Shown here piece by piece: positions 15,163 through 29,015 of a DNA stretch of 42,162 bases. Positions within the stretch are counted from its first letter, which is position 1. Each line of letters opens with the position of its first letter. This DNA is from a virus: positions 1-42,162 of IMG/VR virus record IMGVR_UViG_3300031569_000012. The stretch is one strand, 5' to 3'. Below the pieces are notes generated by a model. It worked only from the letters and a program-made list of their open reading frames with translations. It searched no databases and was not told the DNA's origin. The translations under genes and the position numbers were made by a program.

Positions 15163-15177
15163 TTGCCCCTTTTCTAT
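15150..15177. terminator. Bidirectional intrinsic terminator between convergent operons
   Basis: AAAAGGGGC (15150-15158) and GCCCCTTTT (15165-15173) form a perfect 9-bp stem with a TTAATT loop, flanked by A-runs on one side and T-runs on the other. It lies where the rightward tail operon meets the leftward accessory operon and should stop transcription from both. Confidence 0.9.
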
Positions 15178-15419
15178 TCTATATCTATCAGCTTTTCGCT
15201 GTATAAGCCATCAATAAACGCATCCAGTGCCTTGCGCGGCATCGGTCTATATCCTGGGCTTTTTGTCCCAGTTTTAGTGCTCCAAGACTTGATTTTTGAC
15301 TTTGTCACGTCTTGAACGCCCTGTTTTTCGAATATCTCAATTATTAAATCTTTGTCTTTGTGTATCTGCATCAACATCAATAAATGCTTAAATACATCAT
15401 TTGTTGGAATGAATTCCAT
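15174..15419 (-). CDS. Small protein resembling a DUF1456/YehS-type domain
   Basis: This 81-aa protein has the sequence plan of one DUF1456 (YehS-like) repeat: a helix with 'NDVFKHLLMLMQIHKDKD', then 'LIIEIFEKQGVQDVTKSKI', a loop, and 'MPRKALDAFIDGLYSEKL'. The function of this family is unknown. It is the last gene of the leftward accessory operon, one base after the AcrIF11-like gene, and it stops at the shared terminator. The family call is by eye and tentative. Confidence 0.5.
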   Translation of the reverse strand: MEFIPTNDVFKHLLMLMQIHKDKDLIIEIFEKQGVQDVTKSKIKSWSTKTGTKSPGYRPMPRKALDAFIDGLYSEKLIDIE

Positions 15420-15420
15420 A

Positions 15421-15861
15421 CTACCCCCTTTTAGAGATCAATTTTAAATCAGATTCCCGCCCCATCATCGGGACAATATAGACTGTTCCTTGCTCGTCTG
15501 TTGACTGACAAGCTTTGTAACCCATCTTTTTAGCACACTCGCCCTGCTTTGACTGTATCCACCAATCCGCCTCCCCCGCATCTTCAAGCATCAAGTCATT
15601 CGCGCTCTGAGAGCCATCAAGAAGAGATTCGGCGATATCGTTATCTACGCCCAGATTATCCGCTATCTCTGCAATGATCTCGTCGTCATACAGCTCATAA
15701 TCTTCAATGATCTCGTCGTCTTGAATCTCAAGCGCATATACATAATAGCCTTCTGCAGCTGTCATGACGTACTCGTTATTCGAGAAGAAAAGACAATCTG
15801 CGAACAGACCATAAGAGCGGATTTTCTCAATTTTAGCGGGGCTTGTGTGAATTACGTTCAT
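15421..15861 (-). CDS. Candidate anti-CRISPR, AcrIF11-like ADP-ribosyltransferase
   Basis: This 146-aa acidic protein resembles AcrIF11, which ADP-ribosylates Cas8f so that the type I-F Cascade cannot bind the PAM. Shared plan: an N-terminal His strand 'VIHTSPAKIEKIRSYGLF' matching the AcrIF11 opening (H-G/T-S, then E-I-x-x-I-R-x-x-G-x-F), a hydrophobic strand ending LFFS, 'LGVDNDIAESLL' in place of 'GGDENVAEAIM', then 'MGYKACQSTDEQGTVYIVP' in place of 'LGYTSVEMEDEHGT...'. Length is close (132 aa in the Pseudomonas protein). It has its own promoter with a palindromic operator and a GGAG ribosome site. A different small ART-fold protein is the alternative. Confidence 0.6.
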   Translation of the reverse strand: MNVIHTSPAKIEKIRSYGLFADCLFFSNNEYVMTAAEGYYVYALEIQDDEIIEDYELYDDEIIAEIADNLGVDNDIAESLLDGSQSANDLMLEDAGEADWWIQSKQGECAKKMGYKACQSTDEQGTVYIVPMMGRESDLKLISKRG

Positions 15862-15991: not shown

Positions 15992-16240
15992 CTATCTTTT
16001 TGAGATTATCTCTAAAGCCTGATTAATTTGAGCGTTTCGATCATGTATTAAGCGCTCTATGTCCGCCCAAATATTGCCCGGAATAGCTCGCTCATTATTC
16101 AGCCATTGCCTGACACGACGAACGCTTGAGAGCTGCAGCGCATTAGACAGATCTGTCTGCCATCTCTCACCGTACAGCGCTTGACCGATATCGATCAAGC
16201 GCTGCACGTCCTCATTGCTGTTTTTGAGCGTTTCAGTCAT
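15992..16240 (-). CDS. Small HTH regulator, possible Aca (anti-CRISPR associated)
   Basis: This 82-aa protein contains a helix-turn-helix: 'IGQALYGERWQTDLSNAL', then 'RRVRQWLNNERAIPGNIWADIERL'. Size and sequence style match short phage HTH repressors that include several Aca families, which bind inverted repeats in acr promoters and shut them down after early expression. It lies directly upstream of the palindrome-controlled AcrIF11-like gene, so that operator is its likely target. It could instead regulate the upstream operon promoter at 17599-17627. Confidence 0.6.
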   Translation of the reverse strand: MTETLKNSNEDVQRLIDIGQALYGERWQTDLSNALQLSSVRRVRQWLNNERAIPGNIWADIERLIHDRNAQINQALEIISKR

Positions 16241-16516: not shown

Positions 16517-16738
16517 TTATGCCACTTCATTTCTGTAAGCGCTCAGTAGATATCTGTCAATATCATCATAATCTTCACCTTTTTTAAAAGCATCAACATA
16601 AAGGTCTTTCGTGCCTTCACAAGCTGTATCACCGTCATTTGTTAACGCTACCTCACCATCTTGATCGATATCAAAGTGTATTTTATACGTTTGGCTTTTG
16701 TAAGTTATCAATCTGCTTGTGGTTTTAATCTCTGCCAT
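16517..16738 (-). CDS. Small acidic accessory protein
   Basis: I do not recognise this 73-aa protein. It opens MAEIKTTSRLITYKSQTYKI and then turns acidic (DIDQDGEVALTNDGDTACEG, GEDYDDIDRYLL). ATG 16738 is preferred because AGGAG lies 9 nt upstream; a longer frame starting with TTG at 16804 would overlap the upstream stop. Small acidic proteins in anti-CRISPR operons are frequently further inhibitors or DNA mimics, so it deserves testing, but nothing in the sequence proves a function. Confidence 0.55.
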   Translation of the reverse strand: MAEIKTTSRLITYKSQTYKIHFDIDQDGEVALTNDGDTACEGTKDLYVDAFKKGEDYDDIDRYLLSAYRNEVA

Positions 16739-16800
16739 CTCGGTTTGCTCCTGCTGTTGTGGCCGCCGGTGCGGCGGCCTATTCATCGACTTTTTCTTGA

Positions 16801-17526
16801 TCAATCTACATACAGAGCGTTATCGATTCCTAACTTTTCATAAATTTCTTCAGCTAACCAACCATCGCCTAATAAATCTTTGATCTCTTCAAAGTTGTCG
16901 CACACCGTAGCCTGATGCCTGTCTTTTTCACCCTGCCAGCACGTTACGCCGATCACACACACTATATACTTACCGCCTACGGTTTTGTATACCTCTATAT
17001 TAGTCCACCGCCCTTTGTCGTTGTAAGGATCTCGTGAGCAAGCTTTAGCAATTTGTACGCCTATAAATTTGTAGTTTCTTTCATTGTCATTTAAAGCTAT
17101 ATGCTCCTCGACCTTTTCGCCGTTTATTTCAGTGATTTGTTGATCTTCTGCAATCTCTTCAGTTTGCACTATCTCGCCTGTTATCGAATCGTAATCAACA
17201 GTATCAAAGCCGGTATTTTTACTGTCGAGCTGGTCACAGATGTATTGGTTTAAATTTACGCTGTCACCCTCCTCATCTACTAAAATAAAATTGGCTGTAT
17301 ACCCGTCGTCACTGTCGCTACAACCGTGATCAAAAGAGTACTGGTCCTGTTGAGTGTACTGCCAAGACTCTTTATAGTTTATAAAGATGTCGTCTATAGT
17401 GCTGACGACCGCGCCCCAGCCAAAGACAAGTCCCTCATTATTGTCAAACTCGCCAGTGTCGGAAGCGTGCACCCAATCTTTTGATTCAAGTAAATTATCT
17501 AATTGTGCTGTAGTTAATGTTTTCAT
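16801..17526 (-). CDS. Two-part acidic accessory protein of unknown function
   Basis: This 241-aa protein is the first gene of the accessory operon. Residues 1-100 are rich in Asp/Glu/Asn with aromatic residues (KESWQYTQQDQYSFDHG). A very acidic linker follows (about 105-145). Residues 150-241 form a second part with 'YKFIGVQIAKACSRDPYNDKGRW', 'IEVYKTVGGKYIVCVIGVTCWQGE' and 'DGWLAEEIYEKLGI' (quoted in pieces), a pattern I associate with uncharacterised phage proteins. An AGGA ribosome site lies upstream, and the promoter with a palindrome lies about 75 bp upstream. It may counter a host defence. Confidence 0.55.
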   Translation of the reverse strand: MKTLTTAQLDNLLESKDWVHASDTGEFDNNEGLVFGWGAVVSTIDDIFINYKESWQYTQQDQYSFDHGCSDSDDGYTANFILVDEEGDSVNLNQYICDQLDSKNTGFDTVDYDSITGEIVQTEEIAEDQQITEINGEKVEEHIALNDNERNYKFIGVQIAKACSRDPYNDKGRWTNIEVYKTVGGKYIVCVIGVTCWQGEKDRHQATVCDNFEEIKDLLGDGWLAEEIYEKLGIDNALYVD

Positions 17527-17598: not shown

Positions 17599-17627
17599 AT
17601 TGTAATGCCCGTGACTGTCACAGTCAA
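17599..17627 (-). promoter_or_regulatory. Strong promoter of the accessory operon with palindromic operator
   Basis: On the minus strand TTGACT (17622-17627) and TACAAT (17599-17604) are separated by exactly 17 bp, close to sigma-70 consensus. A perfect palindrome, TGACTGT-C-ACAGTCA read on the plus strand (17612-17626), covers the -35 element and part of the spacer. A repressor at this site would silence the operon. The downstream leader carries a GC-rich hairpin (GCCG...CGGC). Confidence 0.8.
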
Positions 17628-17707
17628 CAGGATAATACATAAATTTAGTTTTTTTTCTGCGCCCAGCATCTATGATGCCCACCGATTTGACCACCGCAGC
17701 GCGTTTC

Positions 17708-17847: not shown

Positions 17848-18963
17848 TCATGAATCAGCCCTGGCCGTGTCCACCATATGACCACCGTCAGGGCTTTCTT
17901 GACCACTGCCTAACAACTTTTCCCTGTCCCCGCTATTCGAATACTCATCAATAAACTCGCTGTAGGTTCTCAAAAACATCTCTACTGTGTGCCCCAGCTC
18001 TTTTGATGCCCTAGCGGGATCTATGCCCATCGATAACATTTCAGCCGCCCTCGTGTGACGGCACACGTACGGGATTCGATAGTGTATGCCAGCTCTAATG
18101 ATGCTTTTCTGTTTAAACACAGCGTGCCACTGCTCATTGAATCGATCAGTGTCCACGTGATGACCACCGATCGAGTTAATGAAAACGTGACCGCCCTCAA
18201 AGCGAGTAGTGTGATCGTTCAAGATCTTCTGAACCCAGTGCGGCACGAGCACAGTTCTAGCTTCGTGAGTTTTCGTTGTTCTCTTCTGCTTGCGGCGGAC
18301 AATGCTCTGATGAATATGCAACGATTCGCCGTTATAGTCACACCATTTGAGGCCTATCGCCTCACCTGGCCGTAATCCACAGCCGAACAGCAGCGCAAAA
18401 TAAACGAGATACTGTCCGTCGAGCTGCCTCAAAATCAGGTCACGCTCGGCTGGTAGAAATCTGTCTATCTTCGGCTTTTGGTGCCGCTGCATTTTGAATT
18501 TTGCCGGATTGGGGGTGACGCAGGCATAATCTAGAATACCCCGCAGCGGTATCAGAGCGTTGCGCTTGGTCTTGATGGTCACGTCAAAATCAGCGAGCCG
18601 CTTCTTGATATCTTTAGTCGTGATCTGAGAAGTCGGCCACTGCGAAAAAGCCGGTATCCAATATCTGTTTATCAGGTTTTCATAACTCAAATGTGTCGAG
18701 AGATCCGCTTGAAGTTGATCAAGATACTCTTGAGCGTCATGCCCAAACGATCGGCTTAACCCCTTCTGCTCATCTTCAAGCGGGTTTATGCCAAGCTTGA
18801 GCGCCGCTTTTATACGATCGCGCTCATCAACCGCCGCTTTGATGTCACTTTTCGAATGGGGGTTGCACTCGATCTGTATTTCGTGCGAGATGCCGTTGTG
18901 TTTGATTCTGAGCTGGAGACCGTTTCCACGGGGGCGGATTCCAGTTGGCCATTTGTTATCCAT
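17848..18963 (-). CDS. int: Tyrosine-recombinase integrase
   Basis: This 371-aa integrase should recombine attP with a host tRNA-Asp gene and, with Xis, excise the prophage. It has an N-terminal arm-binding domain (KWPTGIRPRGNGLQLR at 4-19), a SAM-like core-binding domain (about 70-155) and the catalytic domain. Catalytic residues are Arg198 (GCGLRPGEA), Lys near 231, Arg302 in PYVCRHTRA, His325 (ELGH) and the nucleophile Tyr334 (LRTYSEF). Tyr299 stands where many relatives have the first box-II His, a common variant in this 'PYxxRHT' subgroup. The gene overlaps xis by 154 nt, as int and xis do in lambda. Confidence 0.95.
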   Translation of the reverse strand: MDNKWPTGIRPRGNGLQLRIKHNGISHEIQIECNPHSKSDIKAAVDERDRIKAALKLGINPLEDEQKGLSRSFGHDAQEYLDQLQADLSTHLSYENLINRYWIPAFSQWPTSQITTKDIKKRLADFDVTIKTKRNALIPLRGILDYACVTPNPAKFKMQRHQKPKIDRFLPAERDLILRQLDGQYLVYFALLFGCGLRPGEAIGLKWCDYNGESLHIHQSIVRRKQKRTTKTHEARTVLVPHWVQKILNDHTTRFEGGHVFINSIGGHHVDTDRFNEQWHAVFKQKSIIRAGIHYRIPYVCRHTRAAEMLSMGIDPARASKELGHTVEMFLRTYSEFIDEYSNSGDREKLLGSGQESPDGGHMVDTARADS

Positions 18964-21864: not shown

Positions 21865-22536
21865 TTACTTGCTACCGACTTTGAGAGAAATCGCCTTGAC
21901 GCCAACGATGTTGCTCATATCGTCCAGTATTCGACATTTTATCAACCTATCGACTGATATCGCGGTATAACTCTCATCAGCATTAACCGCCAACCGGCCT
22001 ATCATATAACCGTGTTTAGTTTTGACGCACACAAAATCACCAGGTTCCGGGGTTTTTGTTGTGTCGATCAATATATATTCGCCTAATGACAGCTCAGGCT
22101 CGTTATTCCTGTCTATCAGTCGAATAAAAAAGCTTTCCTCTACGTTAGCGCATCCCATCATCACCGGTAACTCCATCAACCGCCTAGTTCCTTCTCGATG
22201 CATCGCAATGACATCACTGAAAGTGTCTATATCAGCGTATCGTATAACCGGCACTGTTTCTAGTAACGTTGTGGTATAAGAATTTCCTAGGTCTGCGTGT
22301 TTTGAGCTATCTGCTCTAGCGGCCAAGTTCCTGGCTTTTGGTCCTGAGCCGCTTAGAAGCCAGTCTGTATTGACGCCGAGCGCACGAGCTATTTGAGCTG
22401 CGTACTGAGTAGATTCAGCATGCTCACGCTCCAACTTCGAGATAAGCGTTTGTCCGCAGCCAGCAAGGCTGGCGAGCTTGGGCTGAGTCATTTTAAGACG
22501 TTGTCTTTCTTGCTTAATTCTATCGCCTAATTTCAT
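21865..22536 (-). CDS. CI-type repressor with degenerate S24 domain
   Basis: This 223-aa lysogeny repressor has an N-terminal XRE HTH ('RLKMTQPKLASLAGCGQTLI' and 'SKLEREHAES', residues 13-42), a linker, and a C-terminal S24/LexA-like beta domain from about 95. The dimerisation fold is kept (FFIRLIDRNNEP, LGEYILID, PGDFVCVKTKHGYMIGRL). The catalytic Ser of the usual GxSM motif aligns with Asn (about 144-145), the catalytic Lys of the VKRL-type strand is Gly180, and no Ala-Gly cleavage site is obvious. Self-cleavage is therefore unlikely. ATG 22536 is used; the -10 lies only 6 bp upstream, so the mRNA may be leaderless. Confidence 0.85.
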   Translation of the reverse strand: MKLGDRIKQERQRLKMTQPKLASLAGCGQTLISKLEREHAESTQYAAQIARALGVNTDWLLSGSGPKARNLAARADSSKHADLGNSYTTTLLETVPVIRYADIDTFSDVIAMHREGTRRLMELPVMMGCANVEESFFIRLIDRNNEPELSLGEYILIDTTKTPEPGDFVCVKTKHGYMIGRLAVNADESYTAISVDRLIKCRILDDMSNIVGVKAISLKVGSK

Positions 22537-22542
22537 CGTCAG

Positions 22543-22613
22543 AGAATACAACCTTGGTGTTATTTTGCAAAGGTCTTTAGTGTTTGATTTAAACCACTAA
22601 AGTGTTAGTATAT
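22543..22613. promoter_or_regulatory. cI-cro operator region with divergent PRM and PR
   Basis: Leftward: TTGCAA (22565-22570), 16 bp, TATTCT (22543-22548). Rightward: TTGATT (22584-22589), 16 bp, TAGTAT (22606-22611). Three operator half-site motifs (plus-strand cores CTT-GGTGTT 22552-22561, CTTTAGTGTT 22575-22584 and CACTAAAGTGTT 22595-22606) cover both promoters. The second and third make a 28-bp imperfect palindrome with 8-bp perfect outer arms. Confidence 0.8.
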
Positions 22614-22618
22614 TTCGC

Positions 22619-22873
22619 ATGAGCAGAAAACACGTAGAACACATTCGACGCGCAGTGAAAATACTCGGTAGTCAAGTCGAGCTAGCGGAGGCCTGCGGCG
22701 TTCGTCAAAGCCATGTATCAAACTGGATATGTAGAGATAAGACTATCCCGCTTGAGCGCGCGCTAGCTATTGAGATAGCCACTGATGGTGAAGTAACCAT
22801 GCAGCAGCTTCGCCCGGATCTCTTTAAGAAATTAAGAAGCAATGCAGCGAAAATAAAAGCGCGTAGTACATAA
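22619..22873 (+). CDS. Cro / YdaS-type regulator
   Basis: This 84-aa protein is a YdaS/Cro-like HTH: 'VKILGSQVELAEACGVRQSHVSNWI' (about 13-37, quoted as the HTH span) and 'IPLERALAIEIATDGEVTMQQLRPDLF', the signature end of the family. It is divergent from cI and the first gene of PR, so it should shut off PRM and tune early transcription. The ATG lies about 7 bp after the -10 hexamer and has no ribosome site, so it may be translated from a leaderless mRNA. Confidence 0.85.
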   Translation: MSRKHVEHIRRAVKILGSQVELAEACGVRQSHVSNWICRDKTIPLERALAIEIATDGEVTMQQLRPDLFKKLRSNAAKIKARST

Positions 22874-23992: not shown

Positions 23993-24265
23993 ATGTCTAA
24001 TGACTACGTGCGCCCACGCGCCTCATACGTCTACATATCCGCTAAATACGCCCCTCAGCACCGCGAAGCAATACACAACACTGGGATACTATCCCAATAC
24101 GATGGAATCACCCGTATGGCGATCTCACGCCTGCTCATGACTCTTGATCGAGGGGAGGGGGTGGTCATCGAATGGTTTCACGAGCCCTCAAAGATATCAC
24201 CACGCTACTATCTCATGTTGAACGGCACTCATTCTGTTACTGAAATGAAGGGGGTGGCGGCATGA
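23993..24265 (+). CDS. Small protein under the c4-like leader; antirepressor candidate
   Basis: This 90-aa protein begins MSNDYVRPRASYVYISAKYA and includes 'GITRMAISRLLMTLDRGEG' and 'RYYLMLNGTHSVTEMKG', an alpha-beta protein that I do not recognise. ATG 23993 is chosen because it follows AGGGA by 7 nt; longer frames run back through the RNA module. In P1 the gene behind c4 leads to antirepressor synthesis. With a repressor here that looks non-cleavable, an antirepressor role is a reasonable guess. The stop overlaps the initiator gene (ATGA). Confidence 0.55.
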   Translation: MSNDYVRPRASYVYISAKYAPQHREAIHNTGILSQYDGITRMAISRLLMTLDRGEGVVIEWFHEPSKISPRYYLMLNGTHSVTEMKGVAA

Positions 24266-25287
24266 CACAGCATCACTACGATTGTGAGATTGTTGAGACC
24301 GTAGGCATTCAAGCCGCCGTGATTTTCCGTAATTTTCGTTACTGGGTCGAAGCTAACGCAGCTGCAGATCGAAACAAGAGAAACGGCCTCCATTGGAGCT
24401 ACAACAGCATCACACAGCTGACGCGGCTATTCCCGTACATGTCGCGAGATAAAATCCGCTATGCACTCAAGAAGCTTGAGCAATCAGGCCTTTTAATAGT
24501 CGCCGAGTTCAACAAGATGAAGGCGGATAAAACTAAATGGTACTCCGTCGATTACGCAGTTTTCGAGCGGATGAAAGAGGAGTACAGCAACAAGTACACA
24601 CCTCTTTTGCAAGGCAATAGCGCACAAGAAATGGCCGAAGATGACGAAGAGGAGGGGGGTGGTAAAATTCCCGCGGGGGGGTGGGAAAATTCCCAGGGGG
24701 GGTGGGAAAATTCCCAAATGCCTATGGTAAATTTCCCAAATGGGGGTGGTAAAATTCCCAAACCAATACCAGATATAAACATACCAGATATAAACATACC
24801 AGATATAAACATACCAAATATAAACCCCCCTAACCCCCCAAGGGGGGAATCTGAGCAAGCTCAGTCGAGTGTGGGAAAATCTTACTCTGATAACTTTTTG
24901 ATCTTTTGGGAAGCCATCAAAACTGAGTTTGAGTCGGTGGGTTGTTCCATGGGCTCGAAGTCGGAGGCTCTGAAAGAATTCAAAAAGCTCAAGCCTGAAC
25001 AACAAACAATCGATCGCTGGATCGAAGCGGCGAAGCGCCAAGCTGGCGATAAGCTCAGCAGGTCGGCTCGCGGTGAGTTCGCTGAGCAGTTCCAACACGT
25101 CAGCCGATGGCTGAAAAATAAACGTTTCGATGATGAGGTTCAGATTGGGCTACCGGCGCTGATTTCGCCTGCGCAGGCAGGCAGAGCAAAACCGGCCGGC
25201 GCAGCGAAGATCGACGCTATCCGGGCCCACAACCAGCGCGCCTCGATCGAGGCCTACGAAGAAATGATGGCCGAGGAGGCTAACTGA
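24262..25287 (+). CDS. Replication initiator, O-like, containing the origin
   Basis: This 341-aa protein has an N-terminal winged-helix region ('GLHWSYNSITQLTRLFPYMS' and 'RDKIRYALKKLEQSGLLIV', about 43-81) typical of phage replication initiators that bind iterons. Its middle (about 130-200) is low complexity: GGGKIP / GGWENSQ blocks then four IPDIN pentads, because the DNA there is the iteron array and AT-rich repeats. The C-terminal part (about 215-340) is a helical domain ('FWEAIKTEFESVG', 'EQFQHVSRWLKNKRFDDE') found in O-type proteins that contact the helicase loader. Lambda O has the same origin-in-gene layout. It overlaps genes on both sides. Confidence 0.8.
   Translation: MTQHHYDCEIVETVGIQAAVIFRNFRYWVEANAAADRNKRNGLHWSYNSITQLTRLFPYMSRDKIRYALKKLEQSGLLIVAEFNKMKADKTKWYSVDYAVFERMKEEYSNKYTPLLQGNSAQEMAEDDEEEGGGKIPAGGWENSQGGWENSQMPMVNFPNGGGKIPKPIPDINIPDINIPDINIPNINPPNPPRGESEQAQSSVGKSYSDNFLIFWEAIKTEFESVGCSMGSKSEALKEFKKLKPEQQTIDRWIEAAKRQAGDKLSRSARGEFAEQFQHVSRWLKNKRFDDEVQIGLPALISPAQAGRAKPAGAAKIDAIRAHNQRASIEAYEEMMAEEAN
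24654..24759 (+). repeat. Five origin iterons
   Basis: 19-bp units GGGGGGTGGKAAAATTCCC start at 24654, 24676, 24697, 24719 (degenerate) and 24741, spaced 21-22 bp, close to two helical turns, so all bound proteins would face one side. The G-runs could also form quadruplexes on the plus strand. Confidence 0.9.
24766..24847 (+). other. Origin unwinding element: four tandem 15-bp AT-rich repeats
   Basis: ATACCAGATATAAAC repeats at 24766, 24781 and 24796 and, with one change, at 24811 (to 24825). It follows the iterons directly, as the AT-rich unwinding element follows the O-binding sites in lambda. It is closed by CCCCCC-AA-GGGGGG at 24834-24847. Confidence 0.85.
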
Positions 25288-25919
25288 TGGATGCTCAAAA
25301 ACTATTTGCACTGATCAACGGCATGGCTGAGTACTACGAAAAAACACTATCGAAAATGCAGATTAAGTTCTATGTCAACGGCCTCAGAGAGCATGATTAC
25401 TCTGCTGTTGAGCAGGCGTTAATGAATCACATGAACGATCCAGATAGCGGGCAGTGGATGCCTAAAATTGCGGATTTCAAGCGAGCGCTCGACGGCACTA
25501 AAAAATCACGTACAGCGGTTGCATGGGCAAAAGTCGATCAAGCCATTCGCAGCGCGGGACCGTACTCAACAGTCAGTTTTGATGATCCGGTGATAAATCG
25601 CGTAATCGCAGACATGGGCGGCTGGATGTCTCTGTGTGAAACAAAAACTGAAAAGGATCTCAGTTTTAAATCAAACGAGTTCGGCAGAATTTACGAGGGT
25701 TATTTATTCCAGGGCGGCCCGAAGGAGTACCCGAAAAAGCTCACGGGCATTGTTGATGCGGAAAACGGGGAGAGCGGCGAGGCGCTACTGATCGGCGATG
25801 CCGCGAAAGCTAAAAACTGCGTTGAGGGTGGAACAAATACAGCTCGATTGCAGATTACACGATTGAGCGATGTGCAAGATACTGTTAAAGATCTGAAATT
25901 GATAGGGGGCTCGGTATGA
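25287..25919 (+). CDS. Replication protein P-like (helicase loader)
   Basis: This 210-aa protein follows the initiator (TGATG overlap), the lambda O-P order. The N-terminal helical domain (MAEYYEKTLSKMQIKFYV, then GLREHDYSAVEQALMNHM and GQWMPKIADFKRALDG) matches a family of phage replication proteins in P/loader position. Later 'AVAWAKVDQAIRSAGPYSTV' and 'RIYEGYLFQGG' are also shared with it. It should deliver the host DnaB helicase to the melted origin. A trailing region (about 165-210) is less conserved-looking. Confidence 0.7.
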   Translation: MDAQKLFALINGMAEYYEKTLSKMQIKFYVNGLREHDYSAVEQALMNHMNDPDSGQWMPKIADFKRALDGTKKSRTAVAWAKVDQAIRSAGPYSTVSFDDPVINRVIADMGGWMSLCETKTEKDLSFKSNEFGRIYEGYLFQGGPKEYPKKLTGIVDAENGESGEALLIGDAAKAKNCVEGGTNTARLQITRLSDVQDTVKDLKLIGGSV

Positions 25920-27793: not shown

Positions 27794-28210
27794 GTGGAGC
27801 AGATAATTGAAGATCTAAAGAGGGATGAGGGGTTCAGGGGCGTTCCGTACGTTTGCACAGGCGGCATGCTGACAGTTGGTTACGGCCGTAATCTTGTCAG
27901 CAACGGACTCACGGAAAACGAGGCTGATTATCTGTTACGTAACGACGTCGCGCGGGCAATCATTGATTTACAAATTCTGTCATTTTGGGCCGGTTTGAGT
28001 TCTGTTCGTCGTGATGTGCTCGTCAACATGTGCGTCAATTTGGGGTTTGACGGTTTGATGCAGTTTAAAAAGATGCTCAAGGCGCTCGCAGATCGAGATT
28101 ACAGGCTCGCGGCAGATGAGATGATCCGTAGCCGCTGGTATACGCAAACAGGGAGCAGGGCGCGGCGCCTGGTCGGTATGATGATTCGTAACGAGAGGGA
28201 ATGCGTATGA
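27794..28210 (+). CDS. Endolysin, T4-type lysozyme (GH24)
   Basis: This 138-aa muramidase should cut the glycan strands of peptidoglycan at lysis. The family triad is visible in 'RDEGFRGVPYVCTGGMLTVGYG': Glu12, Cys21 in the place of T4 Asp20, and Thr27. Cys at this place occurs in many phage lysozymes of the E-8aa-C/D-5aa-T type. The usual His after GYG is Arg. No signal peptide is seen, so release needs a holin. The start is GTG. It is separated from the membrane lysis proteins at 29245 by Q and the late promoter, an unusual split. Confidence 0.88.
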   Translation: MEQIIEDLKRDEGFRGVPYVCTGGMLTVGYGRNLVSNGLTENEADYLLRNDVARAIIDLQILSFWAGLSSVRRDVLVNMCVNLGFDGLMQFKKMLKALADRDYRLAADEMIRSRWYTQTGSRARRLVGMMIRNERECV

Positions 28211-28641
28211 GAGAGCAGAAAATCAGCGCAGAAAAAGCCGCGCAGAGCGAAATGATAAAACGGCAGACAGAGGAGTTTTTAGCGCGCGGCGGAGAGATAA
28301 AGCGCGATGAGGTAAGCCGAGGCGCAAAAGACCTTTTTAATCCTCGTTTCGCCAAGTTGCATCTCGACTGGCTCAGCTCTGGAAGGGTGCAGACCCACGA
28401 AGAGTACGCTGAGCGCGTTAACACTGTGCTTGATCTGTATAATAGCGTCTGCTTGTCAAAGCGCCGGCTCGTCTCGTACGTCAACGCAGCGCCAATTATC
28501 ATGAGGGAGATGCGCGACAAAGAGTTGCAGCATATCCCCGAACTAACAATCTTGAAATATTTATCAAAGCACGCAGCACGCAAGCGCGCAAAATCGGCTG
28601 TCGAGGCGCTAGCGCTGGGGGCTGCTGAATGTCGGGAATAA
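28207..28641 (+). CDS. Hypothetical helical protein before Q
   Basis: This 144-aa protein is highly charged and helical: 'EQKISAEKAAQSEMIKRQTE', 'GRVQTHEEYAERVNTVLDLY', 'ELTILKYLSKHAARKRAKSA'. ATG 28207 overlaps the lysozyme stop (ATGA) and has AGAGGGA 6 nt upstream; an ATG two codons earlier is also in frame. Its place just before Q is where many phages keep DNA-processing genes (rusA, ninG type), but no such motif is visible. Confidence 0.5.
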   Translation: MREQKISAEKAAQSEMIKRQTEEFLARGGEIKRDEVSRGAKDLFNPRFAKLHLDWLSSGRVQTHEEYAERVNTVLDLYNSVCLSKRRLVSYVNAAPIIMREMRDKELQHIPELTILKYLSKHAARKRAKSAVEALALGAAECRE

Positions 28642-29015
28642 TGGAGGATGAGGTTGTGCAGCTGCTTCGGGGTTGGGGCGCGTGGGCGGGGCGTGATCCG
28701 ATGCGCCTAGGGTACGATCGAATGAATCTGCTGGGCAGGATGAAGGGCTCAACAGTGCGCAGTGTCTCGATCGATGAGACTGAAGCTCTTGCTGTTGATC
28801 ATGCTGTCAGTCAGTTAGCATTGATAGACAAGTTTAGATTCGACGTCGCCGGCTATGCATTTATTCTCAATCTGCCTGACGCTAAGATCTCGCGGATACT
28901 CAAGCGGGGCCAAACGAGCGTAAGAACAGCCCGCCACTGCGTTGTAGCCTACGTGATGGGGCAGCTGCCAGCCAGTATCGATGCTGTGAAAAAAACGCTT
29001 GACGCGCGCGCATAA
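28629..29015 (+). CDS. Late antiterminator, Q-like
   Basis: This 128-aa protein resembles phage antitermination proteins of the Q family: 'VVQLLRGWGAWAGRDPMRLG' near the start recalls 'LERWGAWA', followed by a helical part ('ETEALAVDHAVSQLALIDKF') and a helix-turn-helix end ('LPDAKISRILKRGQTSVRTA'). It would load onto RNA polymerase at the late promoter that lies across its own 3' end and allow read-through of the terminator at 29182. An in-frame ATG at 28641 (MEDEVV) is an alternative start. Confidence 0.75.
   Translation: MSGIMEDEVVQLLRGWGAWAGRDPMRLGYDRMNLLGRMKGSTVRSVSIDETEALAVDHAVSQLALIDKFRFDVAGYAFILNLPDAKISRILKRGQTSVRTARHCVVAYVMGQLPASIDAVKKTLDARA

Follow-up and report, generated by a model that had tools for sequence, protein, structure and literature searches.

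A divergent phage repressor predicted to have lost autocleavage while keeping the S24 fold

Repressors of temperate phages are described as differing in self-cleavage: CB of phage N15 is reported to be non-proteolytic and CI of VP882 autoproteolytic, and in the same account 210 of 271 cI proteins of telN phages are labelled putatively non-autoproteolytic on the basis of predicted catalytic sites (Silpe 2023, PMC10432266). Tum of phage 186 and AntC of N15 are presented as LexA-controlled antirepressors, and the passages on the Gifsy repressors describe proteins without a two-domain structure (Lemire 2011, PMC3121763). N15 induction is described as going through antC, and PY54 as having a single operator (PMC4488713). 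In the annotation of the 186 record, tum is LexA-repressed and its product inhibits DNA binding by CI.

The stretch of DNA analyzed here (the window) is a 42162-base phage genome record with terminase, portal, head, and tail genes (features in Table 1). The repressor reading frame is intact, from an ATG at 22536 to a stop at 21865 on the minus strand, in agreement with the coordinates of the initial annotation. The Pfam HTH_3 match has an E-value of 7e-8, and the best PHROG is PHROG 4, transcriptional repressor (4e-21, residues 1-196). The order of the repressor, cro, replication, and DUF6475 genes resembles that of the annotated phage CBW1004C-Prop1 (39% identity for the DUF6475 protein and 30% for the repressor, its best phage match). 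The middle of the replication protein contains short repeated units, GGWENSQ-like and PDINI-like. Elsewhere in the window, a 146-aa protein (28201-28641, plus strand) carries a SutA-type RNA-polymerase-binding domain whose score narrowly exceeds the Pfam cut-off, and its gene is adjoined by a Q-like antiterminator gene (28629-29015).

Table 1. Coordinates of features in the window
Feature	Position	Strand	Basis or remarks
CI-type prophage repressor	21865..22536	-	223 aa; HTH_3 at residues 7-60 and degenerate S24-fold C-terminal domain at about 95-223
Codon of Asn144, place of nucleophile Ser	22105..22107	-	Alignments; arithmetic from ATG 22536
Codon of Gly180, place of general-base Lys	21997..21999	-	Alignments; arithmetic from ATG 22536
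Codons of Ile103-Asp104, place of Ala-Gly scissile bond	22225..22230	-	Alignments; arithmetic from ATG 22536
Candidate operator, 28-bp palindrome CTTTAGTG...CACTAAAG	22575..22602		Between repressor and cro genes; symmetry
Candidate repressor promoter TTTGCA-17-TATTCT	22543..22571	-	By eye; weak
Cro-like gene, 84 aa (YdaS / P22 Cro family), divergent from repressor	22619..22873	+	YdaS 7.7e-21, P22_Cro 7.5e-11, PHROG 35
Replication initiation protein	24262..25287	+	PHROG 11233, 2e-27
DUF6475 protein	25287..25919	+	Pfam
Integrase	17848-18963		
tRNA 3' half, looks like attP	17794		
LexA-box-like site CTGTTGACTGTGACAG	17615..17630	-	Exact CTGT-N8-ACAG; lead only
Orphan 241-aa ORF, speculative antirepressor candidate	16801..17526	-	Downstream of LexA-like promoter
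AcrIF11-family anti-CRISPR ADP-ribosyltransferase	15421-15861	-	NCBIfam 4e-40, above cut-off; further downstream of orphan

It had been proposed from inspection by eye that both residues of the S24 catalytic dyad are lost, with Asn in place of the nucleophile Ser and Gly180 in place of the general-base Lys. Both placements were borne out: four MAFFT alignments of different composition, with lambda CI, E. coli LexA, and phage repressors as references, agree in putting Asn144 in the Ser column and Gly180 in the Lys column, and lambda Ser149 and Lys192 share exactly these columns in a 45-row alignment. An hmmsearch with a profile of 34 relatives built without the query returned the identical placement at 99.6 bits. 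The equivalence of Asn144 and Gly180 with the dyad is one of sequence alignment, VIA-align 2 returning ranges without residue pairs. A third loss, absent from the initial annotation, appears in the alignments and the profile, where Ile103-Asp104 replaces the scissile Ala-Gly pair; within the GxSM motif, Gly is replaced by Asp142 and Met by Asn145. The window repressor is identical at 23 of the 38 columns conserved among the relatives in the profile, but keeps none of the six linked to cleavage (103, 104, 142, 144, 145, and 180), compared with 8 of the 15 remaining conserved C-terminal columns (Fisher one-sided p = 0.03, for columns chosen post hoc).

An AlphaFold2 model was made from the window repressor and 18 of 21 non-redundant relatives from the fetched contigs (mean pLDDT 73, pTM 0.47). 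Confidence is good for the HTH and for most strands of the C-terminal domain, pLDDT is about 78 around Asn144, and the linker (72-95 and 100-122) is of low confidence, with pLDDT under 50 at 100-122. The best Foldseek matches were lambda repressor fragments, 186 CI, LexA, and UmuD, with 434 Cro for the HTH. In VIA-align, the model gave Z 12.9-13.0 to the lambda CI C-terminal domain (1f39/1kca; 1.4 Å over 92 residues) and Z 10.4 to that of 186 CI (2fkd); the comparison with LexA, which the initial annotation had suggested alongside structure prediction, gave Z about 13. The model has an S24-like C-terminal fold. Among the solved mutants matched was G85D LexA (1jhf), presumably the lexA3 non-cleavable allele. 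The earlier description of the surrounding strands as well kept is supported for the fold by the model and overstated at the sequence level, where Peptidase_S24 scores 13.3 bits against a Pfam cut-off of 23.3. Although that score lies below the cut-off, the model supports the prediction that the S24 fold of the C-terminal domain is kept. Loss of autocleavage with retention of this fold, as first suggested, is well supported: the three cleavage elements are dead by sequence, Z to the lambda CI C-terminal domain reaches 13.0, and N15 CB, reported as non-proteolytic, has the same signature.

Between the repressor gene and the divergent cro gene lies a candidate operator, a palindrome with 11-nt arms that are 91% complementary. 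It is present once in the window, with no copy expected in shuffles, and equal symmetry arose in 28 of 20000 shuffled versions of the intergenic region. The candidate repressor promoter, missing from the output of the promoter scan, ends 6 nt before the ATG, which would give a near-leaderless mRNA.

The best explanation, which taken as a whole we consider quite probable, is that a temperate tailed phage uses the protein as its lysogeny repressor, a non-self-cleaving S24-fold repressor that acts at the palindrome and is released by another factor. Its HTH would bind the palindrome in the repressor-cro intergenic region, and the C-terminal domain, with its LexA/lambda-CI fold, would most likely serve oligomerization, presumably dimerization. 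Self-cleavage would be gone, with Ile-Asp, Asn, and Gly standing for Ala-Gly, Ser, and Lys, and, with all three elements replaced, RecA filaments should leave the repressor active. RecA-driven repressor cleavage is accordingly predicted not to be the inducing step of this phage. Induction would instead depend on a different factor, most likely an antirepressor encoded by the phage and binding to the repressor; the existence of such a protein is suggested by the precedent of AntC acting on N15 CB and Tum on 186 CI.

The frequency of dyad loss was evaluated in a sample in which 143 domain rows were reduced to 67 ORFs (near-full coverage, E under 1e-3) and, after removal of exact core duplicates, to 45. 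Both Ser and Lys are kept in 40 of these 45 unique full-length repressor ORFs of the fetched loci, window included, a set biased by being drawn from repressor matches and neighbors of DUF6475 genes and containing near-identical rows; at under 90% identity, the dyad is present in 30 of 35 rows. Both residues are gone in only two of the 45, the window repressor (Asn, Gly) and that of Flyfo siphovirus Tbat2_3 (Thr, Tyr). The repressors of phiHAP-1 and Vibrio penaeicida (L069) keep Ser, with Lys replaced by Arg and an Ala-Ala cleavage site, and that of Algicola (L073) keeps Lys, with Ser replaced by Thr and an Ala-Glu site. In three others (L043, L041, and L031), the dyad is intact and the first cut-site residue is different. 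The degenerate label needs four changes in a tree of the 35 rows (3-4 in bootstraps; starred branches force 2), in which phiHAP-1, degenerate, and VP882, with its dyad intact, are sisters. The degenerate repressors give no indication of a single origin by clustering in the tree, 113 of 500 shuffles needing as few as four changes. Together with N15 CB (Gln, Gln) and 186 CI (Gly, Arg), these changes indicate that dyad loss probably happened repeatedly.

Close homologs of the repressor were not found by protein search of viral_contigs or genome_contigs; the phage and plasmid collections yielded 17 and 6 records, all under 60% identity, and the best identity of any relative is about 32%, over a partial match. 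Repressor matches at E<=1e-6 were present in 5 of 369 gammaproteobacterial genomes. Two of the five were read: in L196, Ser and Lys are present in their motifs, and L197 has a 118-aa ORF in which, by eye, Ser is kept and Arg stands at the place of Lys. A search for relatives through the integrase was discarded; of the five loci, the one read came from an unrelated phage. Many of the loci L074-L107 carry a near-identical repressor and DUF6475 gene across marine Gammaproteobacteria (Vibrio, Shewanella, Marinomonas, Idiomarina, Colwellia, and others) and are apparently one widely shared mobile element.

The tree also bears on a less probable, though possible, account in which SOS induction has fallen into disuse in favor of spontaneous or other induction, cleavage has been lost, and the C-terminal domain is drifting under relaxed constraint rather than being selected for dimerization. 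Selection for dimerization, the other part of the initial interpretation, is a possibility, but the long terminal branch of the window repressor (2.55, against a median of 0.84) is equally compatible with relaxation. Tbat2_3 (2.39) and phiHAP-1 (2.09, compared with 0.60 in VP882, the cleavable sister) likewise have long branches, and several non-catalytic conserved columns are gone too, for example, the L-N-P stretch. However, repressors whose dyad is intact can have long branches too (3.09 for L006 and 2.25 for lambda), the partial losses of L069 and L073 sit on ordinary branches (0.79 and 0.84), and the fold-defining Gly152, Asp158, Val169, Leu182, and last conserved Gly are retained in the window repressor.

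If, as in the preferred reading, an antirepressor releases the repressor, it did not come to light by homology: the antirepressor families sought, PHROG 10889, PHROG 189 (Tum/DinI), and Bro-N, had no match at E<=1 in the window, a possibly incomplete record, and when 30 window genes were compared with stretches of N15, 186, VP882, and phiHAP-1, the repressor was the only one with a match at E under 0.01. It could be proposed that the antirepressor is SOS-controlled and lies in the AcrIF11 operon, with LexA repressing a promoter at 17627-17599 and the orphan ORF or a small neighbor inactivating the repressor after damage. The LexA-like box overlaps the -35 of this sigma-70-type promoter (TTGACT-17-TACAAT, 10 of 12), 88 nt before the orphan's ATG, and the exact CTGT-N8-ACAG pattern also occurs at the LexA site annotated for 186 tum and immediately in front of an N15 ORF matching the PHROG 10889 anti-repressor family. 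Nevertheless, this location is unlikely. By chance, 0.47 boxes are expected per window, and 37 of 100 shuffles have one; the inner 8 bases of the window box are not AT-rich, unlike those of 186 and N15; and the host may use a different LexA box.

Nor does the orphan resemble any antirepressor family. It has no Pfam or PHROG match and only a weak NCBIfam match (EXLDI); its sole relative in the 369 gammaproteobacterial genomes at E<=1e-4 (L203) covers the last 71 residues only, at 46%. A comparison with 186 Orf97, of similar length, was not convincing (32% over 53 aa, E 0.025 as a single comparison). Beside the AcrIF11 gene are a small HTH-like gene (15992-16240; weak YdaS and Aca2/YdiL matches) and a gene for a DUF1456 protein (15174-15419).

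LexA-like boxes were also counted around other repressors, giving 4 in 104.9 kb for the 5 degenerate loci vs. 6 in 654.4 kb for 52 intact ones. Separate counts were kept for the N15 and 186 loci (2 in 25.1 kb) and for 100 loci that lack a complete S24 repressor (21 in 1246.4 kb). Near-duplicates were left out of this count, as were 27 loci skipped by hand (window or reference duplicates, unrelated integrase loci, small genome pieces, and some DUF6475 phage records). Enrichment near degenerate repressors was rejected as evidence, control palindromes being as frequent there: the eight that were counted occur between 1 and 6 times in these five loci. It is quite improbable that the induction switch as a whole has moved into a LexA-controlled operon with AcrIF11, in which damage would free a new type of antirepressor (the orphan or a neighbor) together with the anti-CRISPR; if true, a single signal would induce the prophage and at the same time protect it against type I-F CRISPR. 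In phiHAP-1, a LexA-like box (16929-16944 of L021) lies 27 nt before ORF35 (95 aa; 16614-16901, minus strand), located between the protelomerase and replication genes. ORF35 is possibly an antirepressor; it shows no significant similarity to the N15 ORF that follows a LexA-like box.

Two further readings concern the repressor protein itself. The first is proteolysis in trans, by an ImmA-like peptidase or a host protease, for which ICEBs1 offers a precedent in the ImmA-type cleavage of repressors that do not cut themselves. Peptidase_M78 (ImmA-type) has no match at E<=1 in the window, and we regard such proteolysis as very improbable. Misalignment, with the Ser and Lys elsewhere in the cleft, might be entertained given the low identity to every relative and the pLDDT near Asn144, but is hardly credible with four alignments and the profile in agreement, Pro147, Gly152, and Leu182 in register on the flanks, and the cleavage site lost as well.

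A non-self-cleaving repressor released by another factor has its nearest counterpart in N15 CB, which aligns with the window repressor over 215 aa (24.7% identity, E 1.8e-5 in a six-locus search) and likewise combines an HTH, an S24-fold-type domain, and a divergent cro. In CB, both dyad residues are replaced by Gln and the cut site reads Thr-Gly, compared with Asn, Gly, and Ile-Asp in the window repressor, and N15 differs in its several operators, its linear plasmid-prophage, and an antirepressor family without a match in the window. In 186 CI (18% identity in the alignment), the dyad is likewise replaced, Ser by Gly and Lys by Arg, and the cleavage columns are gapped; the genome type is different, and the LexA-controlled Tum that induces 186 belongs to a family without a match in the window. 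The phiHAP-1 repressor (ORF37) is degenerate like that of the window, with Arg for Lys and Ala-Ala at the site, but keeps Ser, and the terminases of the two phages are related. Tbat2_3 has a similar order of repressor, cro, rep, and DUF6475 genes, and its repressor has apparently lost dyad and cleavage site too, with a less certainly aligned Ser column, but forms a separate lineage in the tree; its gene lies at 2852-3535 of L024 (minus strand), and an AT-rich LexA-like box is found at 2720-2735. Lambda CI and LexA share the domain order and fold and have the Ser, Lys, and Ala-Gly, of which the window repressor has none. The Gifsy-type short repressors GfoR and GtgR (about 150 aa) lack the C-terminal peptidase-like domain that the 223-aa window repressor keeps, and antirepressor induction, conjectured here, is shown there (Lemire 2011, PMC3121763).

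The sister pair of cleavable VP882 CI and degenerate phiHAP-1 repressor is a good place to study how self-cleavage is traded for an antirepressor. The window repressor adds a divergent case in which the S24 domain is predicted to be kept and all three cleavage parts are lost. By its sequence signature, it groups with N15 CB and 186 CI, with which it has in common the replacement of both dyad residues, a divergent gene of cro/apl type, and, by symmetry, a candidate operator between the two genes. It is thus a divergent new example of an already known class, other phages being known whose repressors are switched off by another protein.
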